Shown here one piece after another: positions 29,182 through 64,000 of a stretch of 64,000 nucleotides of DNA (position 1 is the first letter of the stretch; the number at the start of each line of letters is the position of its first letter). Below the pieces are notes generated by a model, which did no database searches, was not told the DNA's origin, and saw only the letters and a list, made by a program, of their open reading frames with translations. Both the position numbers and the translations under genes were made by a program. The stretch comes from Bacteroidota bacterium (GTDB taxonomy: Bacteria > Bacteroidota > Bacteroidia > Cytophagales > Cyclobacteriaceae), in contig JAFDYT010000006.1 in the NCBI GenBank assembly GCA_018266055.1, forward strand, positions 310,001 through 374,000, in the 5' to 3' direction.

Positions 29182-29670
29182 TTACTTCTGCTTGCGCTTG
29201 CATCGCTTGATATTTTCTTCGAGTGCAAGGCATTGCCACAATTCGGCCGAATGACTCAACGCATCTTTATAATGCCGAATCGCCTTCGTGTACTTCTTCT
29301 TCAACTCATACGCCTGCCCCACACTTTCCAGGAGTTGCGATTTATTCGCTTGTTTGGCTTTCAATCCTTTACTACAAATTTCAATCGCTTCGTCGTGGCG
29401 CTCTTCTTGTTTTAGCAATTGGCCAAGGTGCCAATAGGGATCGGCAAACTTGGGGTTGAAACGAATCGCCATGCGGAAATGAATTTCTGCATTCTTGACG
29501 TCTTCTGCATAAACAAAGTAAAGGAAGCCCAAGGCATTGTGCAGTCGCCCATAGCCAGGCTCCTCGTAAAGTATTCGGTCGAGCAACTTCAACGCAGGTT
29601 CATGGCCTTCCATCCAAGCTAGTTGCAGCGCTTGCTCAATGTATTCTTCAATCCATTTAATCTTTTCCAT
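29182..29670 (-). CDS. Small TPR protein A (tandem paralogue)
   Basis: A 162-residue, soluble protein with about three tetratricopeptide repeats ('EPALKLLDRILYEEPGYGRL', 'AEIHFRMAIRFNPKFADPYWHLGQLL', 'YTKAIRHYKDALSHS') and a basic tail 'IKRCKRKQK'. It is clearly a paralogue of the next gene (29795-30301): both start with an M-x-K-I-x-W pattern, share 'EPGYG-LHN', 'FNP-FA-PY-HLG' and a K-R-C-(R/K)-K end. I chose the start that aligns with the paralogue; in-frame ATGs at 29691 and 29712 are alternatives. It follows rtcB, which may be in the same operon. Confidence 0.75.
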   Translation of the reverse strand: MEKIKWIEEYIEQALQLAWMEGHEPALKLLDRILYEEPGYGRLHNALGFLYFVYAEDVKNAEIHFRMAIRFNPKFADPYWHLGQLLKQEERHDEAIEICSKGLKAKQANKSQLLESVGQAYELKKKYTKAIRHYKDALSHSAELWQCLALEENIKRCKRKQK

Positions 29671-29794
29671 TTTTTGTTTTTTTAAATCCATGATCGACTG
29701 TACATCGACCATGGATCAGTTCATCATCATGTATAAAAATATTCTAGCGCCGATCAGCAAGGCAATCCGGAGTAACACCAGCAGAACGCTTAGG

Positions 29795-30301
29795 CTAGAA
29801 CGAAAAAAAAAGCGCTAGCCGTTTTTTTCGACACCGTTTCACACCCTCCATCAGCATGTTGACTTCGTGTGTTACTACCGAGGCCACAGCAGCCTCCTTG
29901 TACGTTTTGATGGCCATTCGAAAATCGCCGTTCATTTCATACGCATTTGCTAATGCCTGCAGAAATGCGAAACGACTTGCCGACGGCTTTGCCAATCCTT
30001 TTTGCAGCCAATCAATTGCGGTAGCAAACCTGCCAGTCCGGTTGTACATCGAACCAAGGTGCAGATAAGGAGGCGCAAATTCAGGGTTGAATTTTACGGC
30101 CATCTTCAAGTGCAACTCGGCTTTCTCCAAATCGCCGGTGTAGTACAGGTATGCCCAACCGATGTGGTTGTGCAGGTTTCCGTAACCTGGCTCGTCATAG
30201 AGCAGGTTGTTAAGCACGCGCAGACCTTCGTCCACCTGATTATTGTAAATCATTTGTTCGGCTTCCTGCATATATTTTTCCATCCATTCAATCTTGTTCA
30301 T
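29795..30301 (-). CDS. Small TPR protein B (tandem paralogue)
   Basis: A 168-residue TPR protein, paralogous to the adjacent 29182-29670 gene. Repeats are centred on 'GLRVLNNLLYDEPGYGNLHN', 'AELHLKMAVKFNPEFAPPYLHLGS' and 'RMAIKTYKEAAV', followed by 'GVKRCRKKR'. TPR proteins of this size are scaffolds; no partner is evident. It lies 64 bp downstream of rtcB, with a perfect hairpin in between, so expression may be partly coupled to the RNA ligase. The 124-bp gap to the other copy holds no clear terminator. Confidence 0.75.
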   Translation of the reverse strand: MNKIEWMEKYMQEAEQMIYNNQVDEGLRVLNNLLYDEPGYGNLHNHIGWAYLYYTGDLEKAELHLKMAVKFNPEFAPPYLHLGSMYNRTGRFATAIDWLQKGLAKPSASRFAFLQALANAYEMNGDFRMAIKTYKEAAVASVVTHEVNMLMEGVKRCRKKRLALFFSF

Positions 30302-30365: not shown

Positions 30366-31781
30366 CTAATCTTCTGCGGGAGAATCGTCTCCGCACATGC
30401 GTACAATCTTTGGAGTAAATTCTCCAAGCACGTCTACTAATTCATCCTGGTAGTGCATCACTTTGCGGATGTCTTTGTAGGCCATTGGCGCTTCATCTAG
30501 TCCGCCACCAAGCAAGTCGACGTTGTGTTTTTCTAATTCCTGTTTCACCATTTTGTTAGTGATACTTTGCTTAGCCACACTTCGCGACATCTGTCGGCCG
30601 GCGCCATGCGAAGCCGAGTTCAACGATGTGGAGTTGCCTTTCCCTCGCACGATATATCCTGGCGCCGTCATTGAGCCTGGGATTATTCCCAACACTCCTT
30701 CGCCTGCAGGCGTGGCACCTTTGCGATGTACAATCACCTCGGTGCCGTCGCCCAGCTTTTCTTTCCAGGCAAAGTTGTGGTGGTTCTCAACCCGAAACAC
30801 GGCGCGTTCACCCAATGCATCGGCGATGCGCTCATGAATCTGGTGATGATTTGCCGAGGCATAATCGCCGGCGAGGTTCATCGCTTGCCAATATTCCTGA
30901 CCTGCTTCGGTGTGGAGGTCGAGCCATGCGAGACTTGCCGCATCACCGGGCAACAGGCACACTTGCTTGGCTACGCGTGTGTAGTGGCGGGCGATCTCAG
31001 CGCCCAATCCACGAGAACCCGAATGCGAGAGCAACCCGAGGTATTTTCCGGCGGCGAGGTTCCATTCATTCTGCTCGCCAACTTCAATCAGTCCGAACTC
31101 GACAAAATGATTTCCGCTTCCAGACGAACCAATTTGCATAGCCGCTCTTCCTTTCAATGGTTTGAGAATAGTAATTTCATCAAACAATTTGCGGTCGAGC
31201 ACTTCATGATCTTTGGCACGTTTTAACAACTCTCGCCCGAAGCACGTGTTGTCAAACAAAATTTGCTTCAGGTTGCTGCGGTGCCGTTCGAGATGCGATT
31301 CGCTTATCGCGAATGCGCTAAGGCTCATGCGACAACCAATGTCAACACCAACGCCGTAAGGAATCACCGCGTTGCGTGTAGCCAGCACACCGCCGATCGG
31401 CAGACCGTAGCCCTGATGGGCGTCGGGCATTAGCGCACCAGCTACTGTCACTGGCAACTTCATTGCCACTTCCATTTGGTGGCGCGCTCCTTCTTCGATT
31501 TCGCTGGCACCGTAAACACGATAGTCGATCCGCGTTTTGTTCAGCTCGTGTACCAGCGATTTCTTTTCTGTAGGAATTAATTCAAGCGCGACTTTATTCC
31601 ATATTGAATCGTTGATAAACGCCTTCGGCGAAGCCAATACATCTCGCAGCATCGTGAATATTTCCTCTTTCTCGCTTCGGCGAAAATGCTTGAGCACGGT
31701 ATTGATCGCCATGCCCACGGCACGACCTTCGGGATATCCGAGTTTGATCAATTCTTTTCCGCTTAACATCTTTCTTTTCAT
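30366..31781 (-). CDS. rtcB: RtcB-type RNA 3'-phosphate ligase
   Basis: A 471-residue RtcB. Metal-binding residues are visible: Asp and Cys in 'GVGVDIGCRMS' (C150), 'GSGNHFVEFG' and 'SHSGSRGLG'; the His that is guanylylated is in 'SASHGAGRQMSR' near residue 405. RtcB joins 2',3'-cyclic phosphate or 3'-phosphate RNA ends to 5'-OH ends using GTP and Mn, repairing cut tRNA or rRNA. No rtcR regulator or rtcA cyclase is nearby. Its 5' region holds a separate promoter, short ORF and terminator (31885-32051), suggesting attenuation. Two TPR genes follow. Confidence 0.94.
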   Translation of the reverse strand: MKRKMLSGKELIKLGYPEGRAVGMAINTVLKHFRRSEKEEIFTMLRDVLASPKAFINDSIWNKVALELIPTEKKSLVHELNKTRIDYRVYGASEIEEGARHQMEVAMKLPVTVAGALMPDAHQGYGLPIGGVLATRNAVIPYGVGVDIGCRMSLSAFAISESHLERHRSNLKQILFDNTCFGRELLKRAKDHEVLDRKLFDEITILKPLKGRAAMQIGSSGSGNHFVEFGLIEVGEQNEWNLAAGKYLGLLSHSGSRGLGAEIARHYTRVAKQVCLLPGDAASLAWLDLHTEAGQEYWQAMNLAGDYASANHHQIHERIADALGERAVFRVENHHNFAWKEKLGDGTEVIVHRKGATPAGEGVLGIIPGSMTAPGYIVRGKGNSTSLNSASHGAGRQMSRSVAKQSITNKMVKQELEKHNVDLLGGGLDEAPMAYKDIRKVMHYQDELVDVLGEFTPKIVRMCGDDSPAED

Positions 31782-56811: not shown

Positions 56812-59800
56812 TCAGGACGGTTGTCGCGATTCTTCAAACCGCTCTGCCGGCAACTGCTTCTTATTGATCAGCGAAAGCTTGGTCATCGCATTTACTTCAA
56901 TCATCACTACGCCGAAATCCTCCACTACTTTTCCTTTGATTTCGTAAAAGCCGCGCCCCCGAAACGGGAACTTCGTCGCCACGTCAGGGAAGTGAACGGT
57001 GTCAAACACAATTCCTTCGTGGTCGTAAAAAGTGCCAAAGTACATCGACTCGCCTTTTTTTGTGCGTGTGTTTTTGGTGGTGACCAGATAGCCCACGATA
57101 GAGACCGATTTCTTCAGCTTACTCATCAATGCTGTGGCGGTGGTGTCGCCATAATCGGAGGTGGCCAGCAGTCGGAATGGATTGCATAGCGAAAACCCCA
57201 GCAACTCAATTTCATCAAAGGCATCTTCAATTTCATCGCGGTGAAATGCGGGCAGCGGGTATTCGTGGGGCTCGGTGTCAAACAGATTAGCTGTAGAGGG
57301 AAGGCGCACTTTCACTTCACTGAAATAAAGCATGGCTTCCCACAACAGCCGCTGTTTGTCTTTGCCGGTAAACCGAAAAGCACCAATGCGAATCAGAATC
57401 CGGACTTGCTCCAACCCCAGCGCCACGCGACTAAGAAAATTATTCAGGCTTTTGTAAGGTCCGTGTTGATTTCGTTCGTGTACAATCTGCTGGGCGATCT
57501 TCGACTCCAGGCTTTTGAGGTGCACAAAGCCGATGTAGATTTCGTCGCCGTAAATGGTGGTAAGATAATCGCTCAGGTTGATACACGGCGCTTTGATCTG
57601 CGCGCCGTTCATCTGCGCTTCGTGAAAATAAAATTCGGTGTGATAAAATCCGCCAAAGTTGTTGATCACGCCTACCATAAACTCAAGCGGATAGTGCGCT
57701 TTGAGAAATAGGCTCTGATAACTTTCTACCGCATAGCTGGCCGAGTGCCCTTTGGCAAACGAATAGCCTGCAAAGCTTTCGATTTCATACCACACGCGGT
57801 CAGTCACTTTTTGGCTGTACTCGCGCTCGCGACACCCTTCAAAGAATCGATCTTTTACGCGCTGAAATTCTTCGCGCGAGCGATACTTGCCCGACATGCC
57901 GCGGCGCAGCACATCGGCTTCGGTAAGGCTAAGTCCGGCAAAATAATGAGCCACGCGGATTACGTCTTCCTGATATACCATCACGCCATACGTGTCGTGC
58001 ATGATCTCGTCCATCTTCGGATGAATGGACTCGTATTTTTCTCCCCTTCGTGACGCGTGAAACCGCTCGATGTAGGCTTTCATCATTCCTGAGCTGGCTA
58101 CACCAGGCCTGATGATGGAGCTGGCCGCTACCAGTGTGAGGTAATCATCGCACTGAAGTTTGCCCAGCAACATGCGTGTGGCAGGCGACTCGACATAGAA
58201 ACATCCCATCGCCTTACTCCGCCGCATCAGGTCTTTTATTTTTTCGTCGTTCTTGAATTTTTTAAACTGGTACACATCTACATCCACACCCTTGTTACGC
58301 TTCACGTGTTTTACTGTTTCTTTGATGTGGCCCAGGCCTCGCTGACTGAGGATATCAAATTTGTAGATACCAAAATCTTCGGCGGCATGCATTTCAAATT
58401 GTGATACGGGCAAACTCTTTGGTGGAAACTCGGTAGCGGTATACCTGTAAATCGATTGCTCGGTGATGAGCACACCGCCGGCGTGAATAGAGATATTGGC
58501 GGGCAATTCTTTTCTTACAATGTAATCGGCGTAAGCCAACACTTTTTGTGCGATGTGATCGCGCGCTATGTTTTCCCCGCGACCTTCTACGAGGGCATCG
58601 ATCTCTTCTTTGGGCAACCCGAATACTTTAGCCAGCTCGCGGATGATGGATTTGCTTTGAAAGGTAACATGCGTGCCCAGCAGGCACACGTGCTCGGTAC
58701 CGTATTTTGAAAAAAGATATTCGTAGATGGCGTCGCGATTATCCCACGAAAAGTCAATATCGAAGTCGGGAGGCGAAACGCGCTCTTCGTTAAGAAAGCG
58801 CTCGAAATACAAGTCAAGTTCAATGGGATCGACGTTGGTGATACCCAAACAATACGCTACGGTGCTGTTGGCACCACTGCCGCGCCCCACAAAATCGTAT
58901 CCGTTTTTCTTGGCGAATTGAATGAGGTCGTACGTGATGAGGTAATAGGCGGTGAATTGTTTTTTGGCGATGATGGCAAGTTCTTTTTCGATCCGGTCGT
59001 TCCAGATCGTACGATCGGGATCGTCGGCCAGATAAATGCGTTCGTATCCTTCAAGTGCCTTGGCCCGGATGAATGAAGCGTCTTCTTCGGCAGTTTTAAA
59101 AAACGTTTTTTTGTTTTTGTCCACACCGAGTTCGCACGAGATCGTGCACTGGTTTAACAACGTTTGGGCGTTGACGAAGAGTTCTGGAAAATCGGTAAAC
59201 CTCTGCTGTAGTTGTGCTTCGGTCAGCATGAACTCATCAGGCTGCGCTTCCTGATGCACGGGAAGTTTGCTGAGAAGCGTATTGTTGGCAATGCTTCGCA
59301 GCAACCGGTGCGCGTTGAAATCGCGGTGTGCGGTTTTTTCTCTTCCGCTCTGGCGGTCTGTTGTTTTTTGTGGAGGAAGAAGCGTGACCGGATGCAGCGC
59401 CACAAATTTGTGTGCGAATTCTTTTGCAGAATGATCCAGCGAAAAAACGTGGAGGTCCTGGCTCCGCACACCGATAAACTCGCGTTCGCGAAGCATCTCG
59501 GGCTCTGTTTTTTTATAGGGATAAATAAAAAATACATGTTCCAGTTGCGGCGCCCGCGGAGGGAGCATTTTCTGATCACGGTTGTGAAAGGAAAGGAAGC
59601 GATTGAGTTTTTCAAAGCCGTCATTGTTTTCGGCAAGGGCAATGTAGAGCAGTTCGTTTTCTTCAGTTCTAAACTCAATGCCCACGGCAATGTCCAGCGC
59701 GTATGGAATTTTTCCGTAACGGGTAAGCCCATCGGCCATCGGTTTGTTTTCGTTGCAGAGGCGGAGCAGTTCAAGATACGACGCCACGTTGTTGATTTCG

Positions 59801-59928
59801 GTGAGCGCCAGTTTGTGAATGCCACAACGCCGGGCTTCTTCAAAAAGAGTTTTGATCGGCATCGTGCCGTATTTGAAGCTGAAGCCCGTGTGACAGTTCA
59901 GGAGCATGAATTCAGGGCGATTTAACAA
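56812..59928 (-). CDS. DnaE-family DNA polymerase III alpha subunit, likely translesion type
   Basis: A 1038-residue C-family polymerase. Catalytic Asp residues are intact: 'SPPDFDIDFSWDNRDAIYEY' holds two, and 'IYKFDILSQRGL' the third; 'FVGRGSGANSTVAYCLGI' is the conserved Gly loop. The N-terminal PHP domain is degenerate ('NCHTGFSF' without the first His of HxH, 'ALTEINN' in place of TDHG), so proofreading there is unlikely. Short length and the dinB neighbour point to a DnaE2/ImuC-like role in lesion bypass, not to the main replicase. It overlaps the upstream 2H phosphoesterase gene by 7 bp, last in the operon dinB-2H-dnaE. Confidence 0.9.
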   Translation of the reverse strand: MLNRPEFMLLNCHTGFSFKYGTMPIKTLFEEARRCGIHKLALTEINNVASYLELLRLCNENKPMADGLTRYGKIPYALDIAVGIEFRTEENELLYIALAENNDGFEKLNRFLSFHNRDQKMLPPRAPQLEHVFFIYPYKKTEPEMLREREFIGVRSQDLHVFSLDHSAKEFAHKFVALHPVTLLPPQKTTDRQSGREKTAHRDFNAHRLLRSIANNTLLSKLPVHQEAQPDEFMLTEAQLQQRFTDFPELFVNAQTLLNQCTISCELGVDKNKKTFFKTAEEDASFIRAKALEGYERIYLADDPDRTIWNDRIEKELAIIAKKQFTAYYLITYDLIQFAKKNGYDFVGRGSGANSTVAYCLGITNVDPIELDLYFERFLNEERVSPPDFDIDFSWDNRDAIYEYLFSKYGTEHVCLLGTHVTFQSKSIIRELAKVFGLPKEEIDALVEGRGENIARDHIAQKVLAYADYIVRKELPANISIHAGGVLITEQSIYRYTATEFPPKSLPVSQFEMHAAEDFGIYKFDILSQRGLGHIKETVKHVKRNKGVDVDVYQFKKFKNDEKIKDLMRRSKAMGCFYVESPATRMLLGKLQCDDYLTLVAASSIIRPGVASSGMMKAYIERFHASRRGEKYESIHPKMDEIMHDTYGVMVYQEDVIRVAHYFAGLSLTEADVLRRGMSGKYRSREEFQRVKDRFFEGCREREYSQKVTDRVWYEIESFAGYSFAKGHSASYAVESYQSLFLKAHYPLEFMVGVINNFGGFYHTEFYFHEAQMNGAQIKAPCINLSDYLTTIYGDEIYIGFVHLKSLESKIAQQIVHERNQHGPYKSLNNFLSRVALGLEQVRILIRIGAFRFTGKDKQRLLWEAMLYFSEVKVRLPSTANLFDTEPHEYPLPAFHRDEIEDAFDEIELLGFSLCNPFRLLATSDYGDTTATALMSKLKKSVSIVGYLVTTKNTRTKKGESMYFGTFYDHEGIVFDTVHFPDVATKFPFRGRGFYEIKGKVVEDFGVVMIEVNAMTKLSLINKKQLPAERFEESRQPS

Positions 59929-60440
59929 CGCTGTTGTTGAGGTGATAAAGGAAGATCAGAATGCAATTGCCATTGACTTTCCATTCGTTTTAACACCGTG
60001 ATGCAATGGCATGTGAATGAGTTTGCGTACGATAAATTTTTGAGTCTTTTCCAGGCGAGATCGAAATCTTTTGGATCAAGATTTCGGGCGATGGTGATGT
60101 GAGGCTCAATGGAATCCCCGGTTAACTTTTCATGAAGCTCATAAATTTCCATCTTGTTTACAGGCTCCAGGGAAATGGTGCCGTTATTTTTAAAAAAACT
60201 AAAGTTTTTAAAATGAATGTTGAACGGCTTTGTAGTAGAGATCCGTTCGCTGAAATCATACAGTAAGCTTTCGTTGTGGTGATCCTTGTATTGCAAAAGG
60301 GAGAGATGCGCGGAGGAATGAGCGCTGTCGTAATAATGACCGATACAATCCCACACTTGTCGTTTGAAAGAGTAAACATCCCTGATAATATCCTGAGGAG
60401 GAGAGATCAGCAGAAAAAATAAGTTGGATAATGAATTCAT
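59922..60440 (-). CDS. 2H phosphoesterase (2'-5' RNA ligase-like) in the polymerase operon
   Basis: A 172-residue protein with the two H-x-(T/S) motifs of the 2H superfamily: 'SSAHLSLLQY' (about residues 42-51) and 'EPHITIARN' (about 112-120). The family includes cyclic phosphodiesterases and LigT/ThpR. It begins 2 bp after the dinB stop and overlaps dnaE by 7 bp, so it is embedded in the translesion operon. Its job there is unknown; it might process a nucleic acid or nucleotide 2',3'-cyclic end. Such a partner is not a standard part of imuA-imuB-dnaE2 cassettes. Confidence 0.85.
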   Translation of the reverse strand: MNSLSNLFFLLISPPQDIIRDVYSFKRQVWDCIGHYYDSAHSSAHLSLLQYKDHHNESLLYDFSERISTTKPFNIHFKNFSFFKNNGTISLEPVNKMEIYELHEKLTGDSIEPHITIARNLDPKDFDLAWKRLKNLSYANSFTCHCITVLKRMESQWQLHSDLPLSPQQQRC

Positions 60441-60442
60441 AT

Positions 60443-61660
60443 CTATCGGATTTTATCCAGTAAGTCTTTTGAAATCTTTCCACTGAAGGCATTCATCTCC
60501 ATCCGCACACGGCTGCTCACGCCCATGGTGGTGGCGCGCACCAGCTTTTCTACACCGTGTTTGTGTTTGATGAAGTCCATCGCCTCGTACAGGTTGATGT
60601 CTTCTTCGGTGTCGTCAAACAAACTGATTTGCTGGTTGCCGTGCACCAGGTTGCTGAGGCGTACGCCCACCAGGCGAATCAACATGCGGCGGTTGTACAG
60701 TTTGTTGAACAACTCCAGCACCGTGCGCAGCAGCACGTGATCCGACGAAGTGTAAGGAATGTGAATTTGTTTTGTTTCGGTATCGAAGTTGGAGTAGCGG
60801 ATTTTTACCGTCACACACGAAGTAAGCTTTTTCTGGTCGCGCAGTTGAAAGGCAACCTTTTCTACCATCGCGATCAGAATCGACTTCAGTCGTTTCACAT
60901 CAATCGTGTCGGCATCAAAAGTTGATTCAGTAGAAATGGATTTTTGTTCGCTGTAAGGAACGATTGGCGTGTGGTCGATGCCGTTGGCTTTGTTCCACAG
61001 AGCAATACCGTTTTTGCCGAAAGCGCTGACGAGAAATTTCAGCGGCATTTCGCGCAGGGTGGCGATGGTGCGCACACCCATGTCGTGGAGGAAGGAAGCG
61101 GTTTGCGTGCCGATGCCGGGAATTTTTTCTACCGCCAGCGGCGACAAAAAATCTTTTTCGGTGCCGGCCGATATTAGTTTTTCGGCGTTGGGTTTGAATT
61201 CGCCCGTGGCAATTTTCGATACGGTTTTATTCACCGACATCGCCATGGAGATTGGCAGTCCGCTTTCTTTGATAATTTTTTTGCGCAGCTCAACCGCCCA
61301 CTTGAAGGCACCAAAAAATTTGTCCATGCCGCTGGCATCTACATAAAATTCATCGATGGAAGATTTCTCAAACGAAGGGGCCGTGCTGGCGATGATTTCG
61401 GTAACGAGATGAGAGTTTTTGCTGTACGCTTCCATGTCGCCGGAGATCACTTTGGCGTCGGGACAAAGTTGCAACGCCAGGTACATGGGCATGGCCGAGT
61501 GTACGCCAAACCGGCGCGCTTCGTAACTGCACGCCGCTACTACCCCACGCCGGCTCTGGCCACCCACAATGAGCGGCCGCCCTTTGAGCTCGGGGTTTTG
61601 CTTGCACTCTACTGCTACAAAAAAGGCGTCTAAATCCAGATGAAGAACAGAAAGATCCAC
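60443..61660 (-). CDS. dinB: DNA polymerase IV (Y-family)
   Basis: A 405-residue Y-family polymerase. Metal-binding Asp is in 'LHLDLDAFFVAVE' and Asp-Glu in 'SSIDEFYVDASG'; helix-hairpin-helix 'VEKIPGIGTQTASFLHDMG'. The beta-clamp motif 'QQISLFDD' is at about residues 350-357, unusually followed by about 48 more residues instead of ending the protein. It copies past damaged bases with low fidelity. First gene of a tight operon (2-bp gap to the 2H gene). A palindrome (61671-61707) sits 11 bp upstream of its start. Confidence 0.94.
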   Translation of the reverse strand: MDLSVLHLDLDAFFVAVECKQNPELKGRPLIVGGQSRRGVVAACSYEARRFGVHSAMPMYLALQLCPDAKVISGDMEAYSKNSHLVTEIIASTAPSFEKSSIDEFYVDASGMDKFFGAFKWAVELRKKIIKESGLPISMAMSVNKTVSKIATGEFKPNAEKLISAGTEKDFLSPLAVEKIPGIGTQTASFLHDMGVRTIATLREMPLKFLVSAFGKNGIALWNKANGIDHTPIVPYSEQKSISTESTFDADTIDVKRLKSILIAMVEKVAFQLRDQKKLTSCVTVKIRYSNFDTETKQIHIPYTSSDHVLLRTVLELFNKLYNRRMLIRLVGVRLSNLVHGNQQISLFDDTEEDINLYEAMDFIKHKHGVEKLVRATTMGVSSRVRMEMNAFSGKISKDLLDKIR

Positions 61661-61726: not shown

Positions 61727-63454
61727 TTAATCGAGCGGGCCGGCTTCCGCCCATACTAATCCATTGGGCAGGGCAGAGGCATTAAATTCAAGGTGAAGCA
61801 CCCTCCGGTGTTTCTGGCTGGTGGCTTTTGACGACGCGTGTAGCAGCAAGGGCCGCATCAGGTGAATGCCGCCTGCATCCACCGCGCAAGTCTGGGGAAT
61901 ACTGTTTTGCACGATGAGTTGAATTTCCGAATCATTCAATTTTTTGTTTTGGGATCCGGGAATCACTTTCAGTGCGCCGTTCGATTCATCGGCATCGTCA
62001 AGGTGAATTCGAATGGTAAGCGTATTTTTCAAAACCTCGTCGGGCGGGTTTACGCCGTAGAAATTTTCTTTTTTTGTCCACCCTGTGTAGCCGGGAGTTT
62101 CAATTTTGGCGGTCACGCTAATGGTTGTGTCCTGATGCCAGGTCACGTACCAATTGCTCTCCGGGGTTTTATCAAAGTAGATAGCCTTGGTGAGGTGAAG
62201 CTCTGGATTGATCCGTTTCAGAATGCGGACTAAATTATCGCTGAAGATGAGGTTTTTCAACTCTGGAATTTCTGAAAGCACCGACCGGATGGCGTGAAGT
62301 TCTTTTTGGGGATACGAACTGTAGTACCCATGAATCAGATTTTTCATCTGATTGACTTCCTTTCGGGAATAAACGTGTCGCAAAATATCAAAACCACGGT
62401 GCTCCAGTTTTTTCAACACCCGCGGAAAGGCGCTGTTGCTGAATTCGTATTGATACAGATCGAGTGCGTGTTCAAATTTTTCTTTTATGCGGCGCTTCAG
62501 CCGATCGGGCGAAATAATTTTTATGCGATCACCAAATCCTAACAGCTCGCGTTCCAATTCAAAATTCAACTGCACGCGAATGGAGAAAGTGGTACCGTTC
62601 GGCTGGGCGTCCAGTATTCTCTGACTGTGGTGCAGCGGTTTGGTAGCGATGTAGGGCGCCGTTTCACGATCAGCAAACAATACCACTTCTTCAGGCTGCG
62701 TGTTTGGCTCAACGGTTACGCCGACCACGTGTTGGAAATATTCAGCTACCTGAAATTTTTTTTGCTCTATATATTTTACGTCCGAGGGCTTGATGTCAAT
62801 GATCCGGTCTAGGGCCAGCGTCATCACCGGAGCGTTTTTATTTTTAATACCCAGCACAAACCATCGGTTGCGGTATTCTTTCAGATAATACGGGTGAAGC
62901 ACAAAACTATTGGCGCTTCGCGCTTTAAAAGATTGATAATTTAATTCGACCGCTTCTTTTTTGATAATCGATTGGTACAGAGTTTCGATGTGCTCAAGGC
63001 CTTTCAGGTTTTCATTCTTTTCAAAATCGATGACTGGCTCCTGCTTGGTTTTTTCGCTGTGGATTTTGTTTTCCAGCCGCTGCACCATACCGCTCAGTTC
63101 CTGAAAATGACTGAAGCCTTTGAACTGCCTGAGTATCTCCACCACCTCGGTGAGTTTTCCCAAATCTTGATCAGTGAGCGGAATGTTAGTAATAGAGTAG
63201 TCGGGATCTTCGTAGGTGTAATACTTTTTTTCGAGAACAAGAATCGGCGCATTGTACCCGAGCTTGTCGCTGCGCATCATTTGTAAATCCATCTGCACGG
63301 TTCGGCGGCTTACGCCTTTGTCTATGCCTTCGTATTCGTAAAGGGCGTCAGAGCAAGCTTCAATTAAATCTTCGAGCGTCCATCGGCGCTGCCGGTTTCG
63401 GAGGCAATTATCAAGTGTGCGGTAGCGGATCAGCGCATTTCGATTGACGGGCAT
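61727..63454 (-). CDS. WYL-domain transcriptional regulator fused to PhyH-type dioxygenase
   Basis: A 575-residue fusion in one frame. Residues 1-80: HTH ('GVSRRTVQMDLQMMRSDKLGY'-like recognition, cited near 48-66). About 150-225: WYL domain ('LHPYYLKEYRNRWFVLGIK'); about 255-335: WCX extension ('DRLKRRIKEKFEHALDLYQY'). About 347-565: PhyH fold with Fe(II) ligands H440 and D442 ('WHQDTTISV'), H539 ('RPLLLHASS') and the 2-oxoglutarate Arg at 550-551 ('HRRVLHLEF'). All catalytic residues are intact. WYL regulators are known to sense single-stranded DNA in damage responses. It lies 67 bp upstream of dinB and likely controls it. Start at 63454 chosen by the family 'MPVNRNALIRYRTLDNCL' opening. 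Confidence 0.9.
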   Translation of the reverse strand: MPVNRNALIRYRTLDNCLRNRQRRWTLEDLIEACSDALYEYEGIDKGVSRRTVQMDLQMMRSDKLGYNAPILVLEKKYYTYEDPDYSITNIPLTDQDLGKLTEVVEILRQFKGFSHFQELSGMVQRLENKIHSEKTKQEPVIDFEKNENLKGLEHIETLYQSIIKKEAVELNYQSFKARSANSFVLHPYYLKEYRNRWFVLGIKNKNAPVMTLALDRIIDIKPSDVKYIEQKKFQVAEYFQHVVGVTVEPNTQPEEVVLFADRETAPYIATKPLHHSQRILDAQPNGTTFSIRVQLNFELERELLGFGDRIKIISPDRLKRRIKEKFEHALDLYQYEFSNSAFPRVLKKLEHRGFDILRHVYSRKEVNQMKNLIHGYYSSYPQKELHAIRSVLSEIPELKNLIFSDNLVRILKRINPELHLTKAIYFDKTPESNWYVTWHQDTTISVTAKIETPGYTGWTKKENFYGVNPPDEVLKNTLTIRIHLDDADESNGALKVIPGSQNKKLNDSEIQLIVQNSIPQTCAVDAGGIHLMRPLLLHASSKATSQKHRRVLHLEFNASALPNGLVWAEAGPLD

Positions 63455-63555
63455 GCAAAAAATATTTTTGAAAAATTCGTCAAATTTTTTCACTACGCAA
63501 AAAGACTGCGCAGTAGCCCTTCACTTTTGTATCGTCATGAATGCAATGACGCGGT

Positions 63556-63603: not shown

Positions 63604-63691
63604 GGGGAAGCGCCAGAGGCTGGAGAGCTGGACCTGACTGTAAATCAGGTGCATTATTGCTGAACAGGTTCGAATCCTGTCTGCCCCACCA
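63604..63691 (+). tRNA. tRNA-Tyr-like gene (anticodon GTA), 5' end atypical
   Basis: Anticodon stem CCTGA/TCAGG with loop CTGTAAA gives anticodon GTA (Tyr). A 14-base variable arm with GCA/TGC stem fits class II tRNA-Tyr. T-arm ACAGG-TTCGAAT-CCTGT is perfect, and CTGCCCC-A-CCA is encoded at the 3' end. The acceptor 5' side is GGGGAAG, giving an A-G mismatch at position 5, and position 8 is C where U is nearly universal. The 5' part may have been replaced; function is uncertain. Confidence 0.65.
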
Positions 63692-64000
63692 GGGTTCTTT
63701 GAAAAATATTTTCTCATGCCGATGAAGTTCGGCGTCGGGATAAAAATCTTCTTCTCGCCTATGGCGGGATTGAAGCGCGGAAAAAACAAAAGGTGAAAGA
63801 CCAGATGAGGGTTTCAAATCGCCCCATAGTGTTGTGGTGCCTTGCACTGCAATATGCTGCTTTGCCTGGAGTTGTTTTCCATCTTGTGTGTCGAAGGTTC
63901 AACTCCTTCTCCCGTTAATTCGGGATAGCTCAGATTGGTAGAGCAACAAGGCTGCGGGTTCGAATCCCGCTCACAATTTGTTGTGATCGCTCAATGGGTA
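63692..64000 (+). other. Run of tRNA-derived fragments, no intact gene seen
   Basis: I see no protein gene here. A T-arm with 3' acceptor-like end is at 63893-63915 (GAAGG-TTCAACT-CCTTC). Next, a D-arm (GCTC 63928-63931, GAGC 63941-63944) is followed 9 bases later by a T-arm (GCGGG-TTCGAAT-CCCGC, 63954-63970) with no anticodon arm. A further D-arm start (GCTCAATGGGTA, 63989-64000) runs off the window. A CACAA/TTGTG hairpin is at 63972-63985. They look like recombined or decayed tRNA pieces; the last may belong to a gene that continues outside. Confidence 0.55.

Follow-up and report, generated by a model that had tools for sequence, protein, structure and literature searches.

What would a single protein regulate, and what would it sense, when a WYL-type transcription regulator and an Fe(II)/2-oxoglutarate (2OG) oxygenase are encoded in one reading frame? 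This question is raised by a gene in the window, that is, the whole 64,000 nt stretch of Bacteroidota DNA analyzed here. The gene and its parts are as follows.

61727 to 63454, minus strand: WYL-PhyH fusion gene, one uninterrupted frame from ATG, 575 aa
62789 to 62995, minus strand: WYL domain, residues 154-222 (Pfam, 45 bits, above the cut-off)
62465 to 62695, minus strand: WCX domain, residues 254-330 (Pfam, 43.4 bits, above the cut-off)
62396 to 62464, minus strand: linker region, residues 331-353 (23 residues in 82/82 fusions)
61799 to 62395, minus strand: PhyH (2OG/Fe(II) oxygenase) domain, residues 354-552 (Pfam, 52.7 bits against a cut-off of 22; fold model)
62129 to 62137, minus strand: H440-Q441-D442 metal motif (alignment of fusions)
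61838 to 61840, minus strand: H539, distal metal histidine (alignment of fusions)
61805 to 61807, minus strand: R550 (alignment of fusions), by its position, 11 residues past the distal histidine, the expected 2OG-binding arginine

An earlier note on this DNA had described one continuous frame joining an HTH-WYL-WCX regulator to a PhyH-like domain with intact HxD...H and arginine residues and a junction near nt 62420. This description held throughout: the 575-aa frame is continuous, Pfam matched the WYL, WCX and PhyH domains, the HTH was recovered through AlphaFold and Foldseek, H440, D442, H539 and R550 are present with R551 also conserved, and the junction was found at about 62396-62464. Starting instead at an in-frame GTG (63493) would lengthen the protein to 588 aa; the ATG start was preferred because M1 is invariant in a 69-row alignment. 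These 69 of the 82 fusions, from which truncated, degenerate, contig-edge and inserted rows were among those left out, also served as the AlphaFold input. The resulting model (mean pLDDT 85.4, pTM 0.61) shows an N-terminal winged HTH with helices at residues 5-19, 27-42 and 50-61 plus two strands, in a region without any Pfam match. By Foldseek, the best fold matches to the first half were the structures 8tp8 and 9fnd of DriD/PafBC, which are HTH-WYL-WCX activators of Caulobacter and mycobacteria. DriD (8tp8) was the top match over 334 alignment columns (E 2.7e-14), with an rmsd of 20.8 Å, which indicates that the domains are placed differently. The second half matched the 2OG oxygenases SnoK, SnoN, EctD, AviO1 and PHYHD1, while a single-sequence PDB search with this half gave no convincing match. 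Thus the fusion has the fold and the HxD...H...R residues in common with PhyH oxygenases (phytanoyl-CoA dioxygenase, EctD, SnoK/SnoN, AviO1), but the matched structures are stand-alone enzymes, whereas here the domain forms the C-terminal half of a transcription regulator; conversely, the matched DriD/PafBC structures have no oxygenase half. No NCBIfam profile scored above its cut-off on the fusion protein, and CARF and sigma54 AAA+ domains of the RtcR type had no Pfam match in it. PADLOC returned generic WYL models and Cas3c only, and a defence-system label was rejected.

Besides the query, 81 distinct fusions were collected from a genome contig scan and from the loci of 58 relatives, a protein being counted as a fusion when its alignment started at or before residue 10 and ended at or after residue 530. 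The scan confirmed 197 related stretches, the best 80 of which were used; the record titles of these 80 name Bacteroidota lineages, except for one MAG titled 'bacterium'. The carriers include the named isolates Ohtaekwangia koreensis, Chryseolinea serpens and Pontibacter species. With the window genome included, 9 of the 58 relatives encode a full-length fusion, as do just 2 members of a phylum-wide sample of 395 genomes. H440, D442, H539, R550 and R551 are all retained in 78 of the 82 fusions, the exceptions being L038 (R551K only), L081 (C-terminal end lost), and L111 and L113 (HxD lost). In the WYL domain, NRWF (196-199) and ALDR (214-217) are invariant in 82/82 fusions, as are K423, K429, R482 and H484 of the PhyH half in the 69-row alignment. 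That the fusion is genuine and conserved, with a WYL regulator of the DriD/PafBC type in front of a PhyH-type oxygenase, is thereby confirmed.

Mobile carriage of the fusion was considered and rejected on record coverage: among 40 matching plasmid records a single one, from Persicobacter (32% identity), spans 80% or more of the query, and among 9 matching phage records none does. The Persicobacter plasmid pPP3 (L116, 7001-8602) encodes a divergent WYL protein ending in a degenerate PhyH-like tail. This protein lacks the HxD and any Pfam PhyH match, and its gene adjoins alkane monooxygenase and thiosulfate transporter genes and not RNA repair. On a Segatella copri plasmid (L118, 6001-8981), an unfused WYL relative is interrupted by an IS607-type transposase and TnpB, and the split gene adjoins an RlaP-like nucleotidyltransferase.

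Directly downstream of the fusion gene, the window carries genes for a dnaE-type polymerase, a 2'-5' RNA ligase-like protein and dinB (56812-61660, minus strand). The earlier note had named recurrence of the fusion beside dinB/dnaE in several related genomes as support, had allowed for a recent stop-codon loss between two genes, and had pointed to DNA-damage responses. The recurrence of the fusion was borne out 81 times, but not the company of dinB/dnaE. The sensing or use of oxygen, iron or 2-oxoglutarate, which the note had also proposed, is possible. Although the short linker would suit a recent stop-codon loss, or an assembly artefact joining two genes, the 81 other distinct fusions have a linker of the same length, 23 residues, which leaves that explanation a negligible probability. 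A role in DNA damage, in which single-stranded DNA (ssDNA) would switch the protein to regulate the neighboring dinB, ligT-like and dnaE genes, would agree with the start of dinB 66 bases downstream on the same strand and with the ssDNA binding of DriD and PafBC, as given in the available text of two papers (PMC11804915, PMC12340889). It is nevertheless very improbable: dinB/dnaE adjoin the fusion in 0 of 81 relatives (flanks of 6 kb for most and at most 1.5 kb for some), no operator (described below) precedes dinB, the ligT-like gene or dnaE in the window, and the first arginine of the RLDR motif is alanine in 82/82 fusions. A DNA-damage regulon with dinB/dnaE was rejected on the 0/81 count, and the operator and the partner genes point instead to RNA repair.

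The replaced arginine also bears on the ligand of the WYL domain. Binding of ssDNA by PafB requires R211/R214, according to the available text of PMC11804915. When these residues are equated with A214/R217 of the fusion, by motif and not by alignment, alanine takes the first place and R217 is kept in all 82 fusions, whereas DriD reads RLDR; therefore, the ligand may not be the ssDNA of DriD/PafBC. Judged from these residues, A214 lowers the claim of ssDNA binding and leaves the WYL family membership intact. All 32 unfused relatives listed likewise lack the first arginine, and 29 of them read ALDR or GLDR, so the replacement marks a wide Bacteroidota group and not the RNA-repair members alone. 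A review credits WYL domains, in the part available, with recognition of cyclic nucleotides and refers to 2',3'-cyclic RNA ends, citing a 2016 survey of RNA repair (PMC7824862). In the fusion, the neighbor genes suggest that the WYL ligand would be a product of RNA breakage.

These neighbors are markedly one-sided. Among the 63 fusion loci whose upstream sequence extends to 5 kb or more, 54 have RtcB, slipin, TROVE, RlaP or PrfH on that side (RtcB 47, slipin 30, RlaP 17, TROVE 8, PrfH 7), and every such match is divergent from the fusion gene; the other 9 loci have none of these genes in the upstream flank examined. Downstream, the same genes were found in 1 of 65 loci with at least 5 kb. In the window genome (L115), the divergent unit consists of tRNA-Tyr, two YrlA-like matches, a slipin gene (366-aa SPFH/slipin), tRNA-Arg, tRNA-Leu and rtcB, and its first elements lie in the window:

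63604 to 63691, plus strand: tRNA-Tyr (gta), first element of the divergent unit
63885 to 63949, plus strand: YrlA (Y RNA-like) match, 38.7 bits, E 1.7e-5, under the Rfam gathering score of 69
63919 to 63978, plus strand: tRNA-like element, 31.4 bits, just above the gathering score of 29
63950 to 64000, plus strand: second YrlA-like match, 33.1 bits, E 7.1e-4, under the gathering score, running 4 bases past the window

With ARAGORN, tRNAs were detected upstream in 26 of 82 loci (91 tRNAs, 88 of them divergent) and downstream in 9 of 82 (41 tRNAs), the row of the window extending over 15.5 kb on the upstream side and 1.7 kb on the downstream side. Of 8 further loci scanned, 7 gave YrlA-like matches, all under the gathering score (L160, L161, L162, L039, L062, L074 and the unfused L186; negative in L090). 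Two Crocinitomix MAGs, L074 (2870-4078) and L109, have 12 consecutive tRNA genes between the fusion and slipin. The window genome has YrlA-like RNAs, and the search of this genome matched no TROVE/Ro60 gene; the Y-like RNA may therefore serve another protein, such as SPFH/slipin.

A known counterpart is rsr-yrlBA-rtcBA, an RtcR-regulated RNA-repair operon with Ro60 and Y RNA, as the available text of PMC7790460 describes it. RtcB, TROVE/Ro60, Y RNA-like RNAs and tRNA genes are likewise neighbors in many fusion relatives, but RtcR is a sigma54 CARF activator whereas the fusion is a WYL protein joined to an oxygenase, and the window genome differs from Ro60 operons in having no TROVE match. Anabaena TrcR is similar in placing rtcB, a slipin gene and a tRNA operon under one regulator; it is reported as a repressor and belongs to a family other than RtcR (PMC10272220, available text). 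Taken together, the conserved partners and the predicted operator make the assignment of the fusion to RtcB/slipin/Ro60/tRNA RNA repair well supported at the sequence level.

The predicted operator lies between the fusion gene and this unit, with a promoter element beside it:

63493 to 63513, no strand assigned: predicted operator CTACGCA-N7-TGCGCAG, whose minus-strand reading contains TTTG, a candidate −33 box of the fusion gene
63526 to 63529, plus strand: TTTG of the candidate −7 box of the divergent unit, at conserved spacing from the operator

Its consensus, CTRCGCA-N7-TGCGYAG, is a palindrome. Of 81 fusions, the window included and one locus left out for too little upstream DNA, 61 have the core CGCA-N7-TGCG in the 200 bp before the gene, and the spacer is 7 in all 61 matches; 100 dinucleotide shuffles of the upstream regions gave a mean of 0.49 and a maximum of 2 matches. 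The other 20 of the 81 upstream regions have no match. The site at 63493 is the sole exact-core site in the window, and at no more than one mismatch the window genome has two sites, 63493 and C18:380140, the latter preceding a second array of tRNA-like genes and lacking the usual −7 box. One relative has three operators, before rtcB, slipin (757 bp ahead) and TROVE/fusion. Among 17 unfused loci from the phylum sample, 14 have the operator core (absent in L177, L179 and L192) and 13 have an RNA-repair gene (absent in L179, L184, L191 and L192), though some of the RtcB matches at these loci are just 29-31% identical. Of seven unfused loci at 49% identity or more from relatives, four have the operator and three a repair gene. 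Thus, most unfused orthologues in Bacteroidota appear to keep the operator and targets.

At the genome level, 14 genomes hand-picked from the relatives were compared: all 8 with a protein match have a site with at most one mismatch and none of the 6 without it does, while the reversed-pattern control gave 0-2 matches per genome, which is near the genome-wide rate for one-mismatch sites. The site in one genome, G051, does not adjoin a regulator. In 15 further genomes the agreement is looser: G390 combines the regulator with no site, and G312 and G426 carry sites in the absence of a close regulator. At two mismatches, genome-wide operator counts equal the control rate (12 vs 12).

The −7 box of Bacteroidota promoters is TAnnTTTG. 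We examined 70 sites located no more than 450 bp ahead of an RtcB, TROVE, slipin or RlaP match, reading towards that match, and found TTTG exactly 15 bases past the operator core in 61 of 70 and within one base of this place in 62. The letters at the −33 place were AAAA in 60, AGAA in 8, AGGT in 1 and AATT in 1, and never TTTG. When sites were oriented by their A-rich spacer, TTTG stood at offset 15 in 112 of 133, against 0.53 per offset after shuffling; the 133-site pick (A-rich letters after CGCA) itself excludes a −33 TTTG, whereas the 70-site count was made without it, and all these counts include related, non-independent genomes. This spacing fits a Bacteroidota −7 box with the operator in the −33 place. 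The lack of a −33 TTTG (70/70) with a fixed −7 TTTG (61/70) makes the target promoters look activator-dependent, and a protein bound in the −33 place at a fixed distance from the −7 box would most likely recruit RNA polymerase. On the regulator side, TAnnTTT follows 19 bases past the TTTG of the operator in 15 of 61 loci (expected 0.64), although the own side of the window fusion gene has no clear −7 box; because the operator covers the own-side −33-type TTTG, the regulator probably limits its own expression. From this two-sided geometry and the likeness to DriD, we read the protein as an activator of its targets that limits itself.

DriD itself offers a close precedent: the available text of PMC12340889 gives its operator as two 7-base half-sites with an N7 spacer, at a fixed distance from −10 elements and with poor −35s, a plan like that of the fusion. 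Three differences stand beside it. DriD/PafBC act in DNA damage, whereas the neighbors and operators of the fusion lead to RNA repair and tRNA arrays; DriD has RLDR where the fusion has ALDR; and the apparent self-regulation of the fusion contrasts with driD, for which self-regulation is reported against (PMC12340889, available text).

How the oxygenase came to the regulator was approached through trees. In the WYL tree the fusions cluster, with the unfused L015, L016 and L114 nested inside with starred support, and the nearest outside are the unfused L029 (beside TROVE) and L018 (beside RtcB), with modest support. As these two lie outside the fusions yet beside repair genes, the RNA-repair link seems older than the fusion; several long branches make the number of PhyH losses unsure. 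The standalone PhyH proteins are 41-49% identical to the fused half, and in a PhyH tree without outgroup a 100/100 branch separates them from 79 fused ones, for which one fusion event suffices. The oxygenase domain was thus probably joined to the regulator once.

Standalone PhyH occurs in 9 of 147 other genomes (one partial), and all 9 are among the 17 of 147 with a regulator of at least 45% identity (Fisher 3.5e-10, relatedness being ignored and the 45% cut chosen after seeing the matches); regulators without standalone PhyH account for the other 8 of the 17. In an overlapping sample of 393 genomes, PhyH was found in 26, the regulator in 42 and both in 21, counts that should be read with two features of the 395-genome sample in mind, namely its overlap with the 148-genome sample and the scoring of only 3 regulator candidates per genome, by which regulators may be missed. 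Five PhyH-positive genomes without a close regulator were rechecked, and four have none at E 1e-20 and one has a 27% match. The two halves therefore tend to co-occur in genomes, while PhyH also exists without the regulator. None of ten PhyH loci (L176 at only 29% identity) has the standalone gene beside RNA-repair genes, an operator-like palindrome, off consensus, was present at one of the ten (L174), and no neighbor is common to more than two of nine loci.

Three other readings of the same regulon have to be weighed, one on the sign of regulation and two on the PhyH half. The protein could keep the RNA-repair genes repressed and be released by a ligand, as is reported for TrcR in Anabaena, where rtcB and trn are repressed and the slipin gene is among those raised in the deletion (PMC10272220, available text). 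A fixed operator spacing could suit a repressor too, and the regulator's own −33-type TTTG sits inside the operator; but the missing −33 TTTG and the single −7 spacing on the target side, together with fold matches to the activators DriD and PafBC, make repression fairly unlikely. For the second half, a non-catalytic ligand-binding or structural role draws on the loss of HxD in L111, L113 and the Persicobacter relative L116, by which such a role is possible in some lineages, and on the WYL-only proteins nested among the fused ones, of which L015 and L114 keep the operator (seen at the same places as L119 and L133). Since HxD and the distal histidine are retained in 79 of 82 fusions, we regard this role as unlikely in general, and the PhyH half is probably catalytically competent. 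That it might instead be an RNA- or nucleotide-modifying enzyme, tethered for co-production and oxidising RNA ends or tRNA rather than sensing metabolic state, is a possibility of some substance that falls short of our preference: the catalytic residues stand in 78 of 82, the standalone homologues sit in genomes mostly with an unfused regulator, and the invariant K423, K429, R482 and H484 would suit an anionic substrate, yet the oxygenases among the 50 best solved folds listed act, judged by their names, on small molecules (SnoK, EctD, AviO1, proline hydroxylase), and the standalone genes lie outside RNA-repair loci.

We therefore favor with good, though not full, confidence a DriD/PafBC-like WYL activator of an RNA-repair locus that limits itself and carries a 2OG/Fe(II) oxygenase probably joined once. 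Fusion, conservation, context, operator and promoter geometry are read from sequence, and from there we infer binding, activation, the ligand and the PhyH role. The protein would bind CTRCGCA-N7-TGCGYAG between its own gene and the divergent tRNA-Tyr/YrlA-like/slipin/tRNAs/rtcB unit. On the target side, where the operator stands in place of a −33 box, the bound protein would most likely recruit RNA polymerase to the RNA-repair unit; on its own side, it would cover the −33-type TTTG and limit its own expression. A nucleic-acid ligand arising from RNA cleavage would switch the WYL-WCX half, and the PhyH half, which may act on this ligand or else report on its co-substrates, would probably tie activation to oxygen, iron and 2-oxoglutarate.

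A bolder version, which we advance as doubtful, is a sense-and-respond protein whose WYL half detects RNA-break products and activates repair while PhyH oxidises the ligand (or tRNA), the two parts being separate elsewhere. If true, the signal would be edited in cis and repair would be gated by oxygen and carbon state, with the halves acting as separate proteins elsewhere in the phylum. The fusion, and the occurrence of standalone PhyH mostly alongside the unfused form, point to an oxygen- and 2-oxoglutarate-dependent step in RNA-damage signalling, and RNA repair in many Bacteroidota may be tied to oxygen or metabolism. To our knowledge, the induction of RtcB/Ro60 RNA repair in bacteria without RtcR has been little studied; for one RNA-repair regulon of Bacteroidota, the present analysis supplies the regulator together with its predicted operator, promoter layout and targets.

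The 2016 RNA-repair survey of Burroughs and Aravind reportedly describes modules of TROVE and SPFH that include Y RNAs and a tRNA-like molecule, as well as a novel nucleotidyltransferase; an earlier mention of a WYL-RtcB link, for example in that survey, is possible. WYL fusions to nucleases, helicases and others are named in PMC4012209, in the available main text of which the words 'oxygenase' and 'dioxygenase' do not occur. In the openly available literature, subscription papers being outside the scope, we found no paper with both 'WYL domain' and 'phytanoyl-CoA dioxygenase', and no title or abstract start among the papers listed describes a WYL-PhyH fusion.

Several further observations concern the window genome. 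A second rtcB (471 aa) lies in the window at 30366-31781 on the minus strand, without an operator core nearby, and is followed by two proteins that look TPR-like by eye (29795-30301 and 29182-29712, both minus strand), so that a second RNA-repair locus of this genome is possible. Just past the first RNA-repair locus, integrase-like, ParA-like, ParB-like and relaxase-like frames were recognized by eye (L115, 10886-17503), and an integrated mobile element may adjoin it. Beyond the window, on C18 (L115, 9181-10160), the second operator is followed by a terminator-like hairpin (z −3.3) and by tRNA genes and degenerate tRNA-like ones (His, Pro, Lys and others), which form an array running leftward. 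A 305-aa frame past rtcB (L115, 8406-9323, plus strand), without a Pfam match, partly overlaps this array and thus may not be a gene. The array itself may be an inducible tRNA-decoy or spare-tRNA array.
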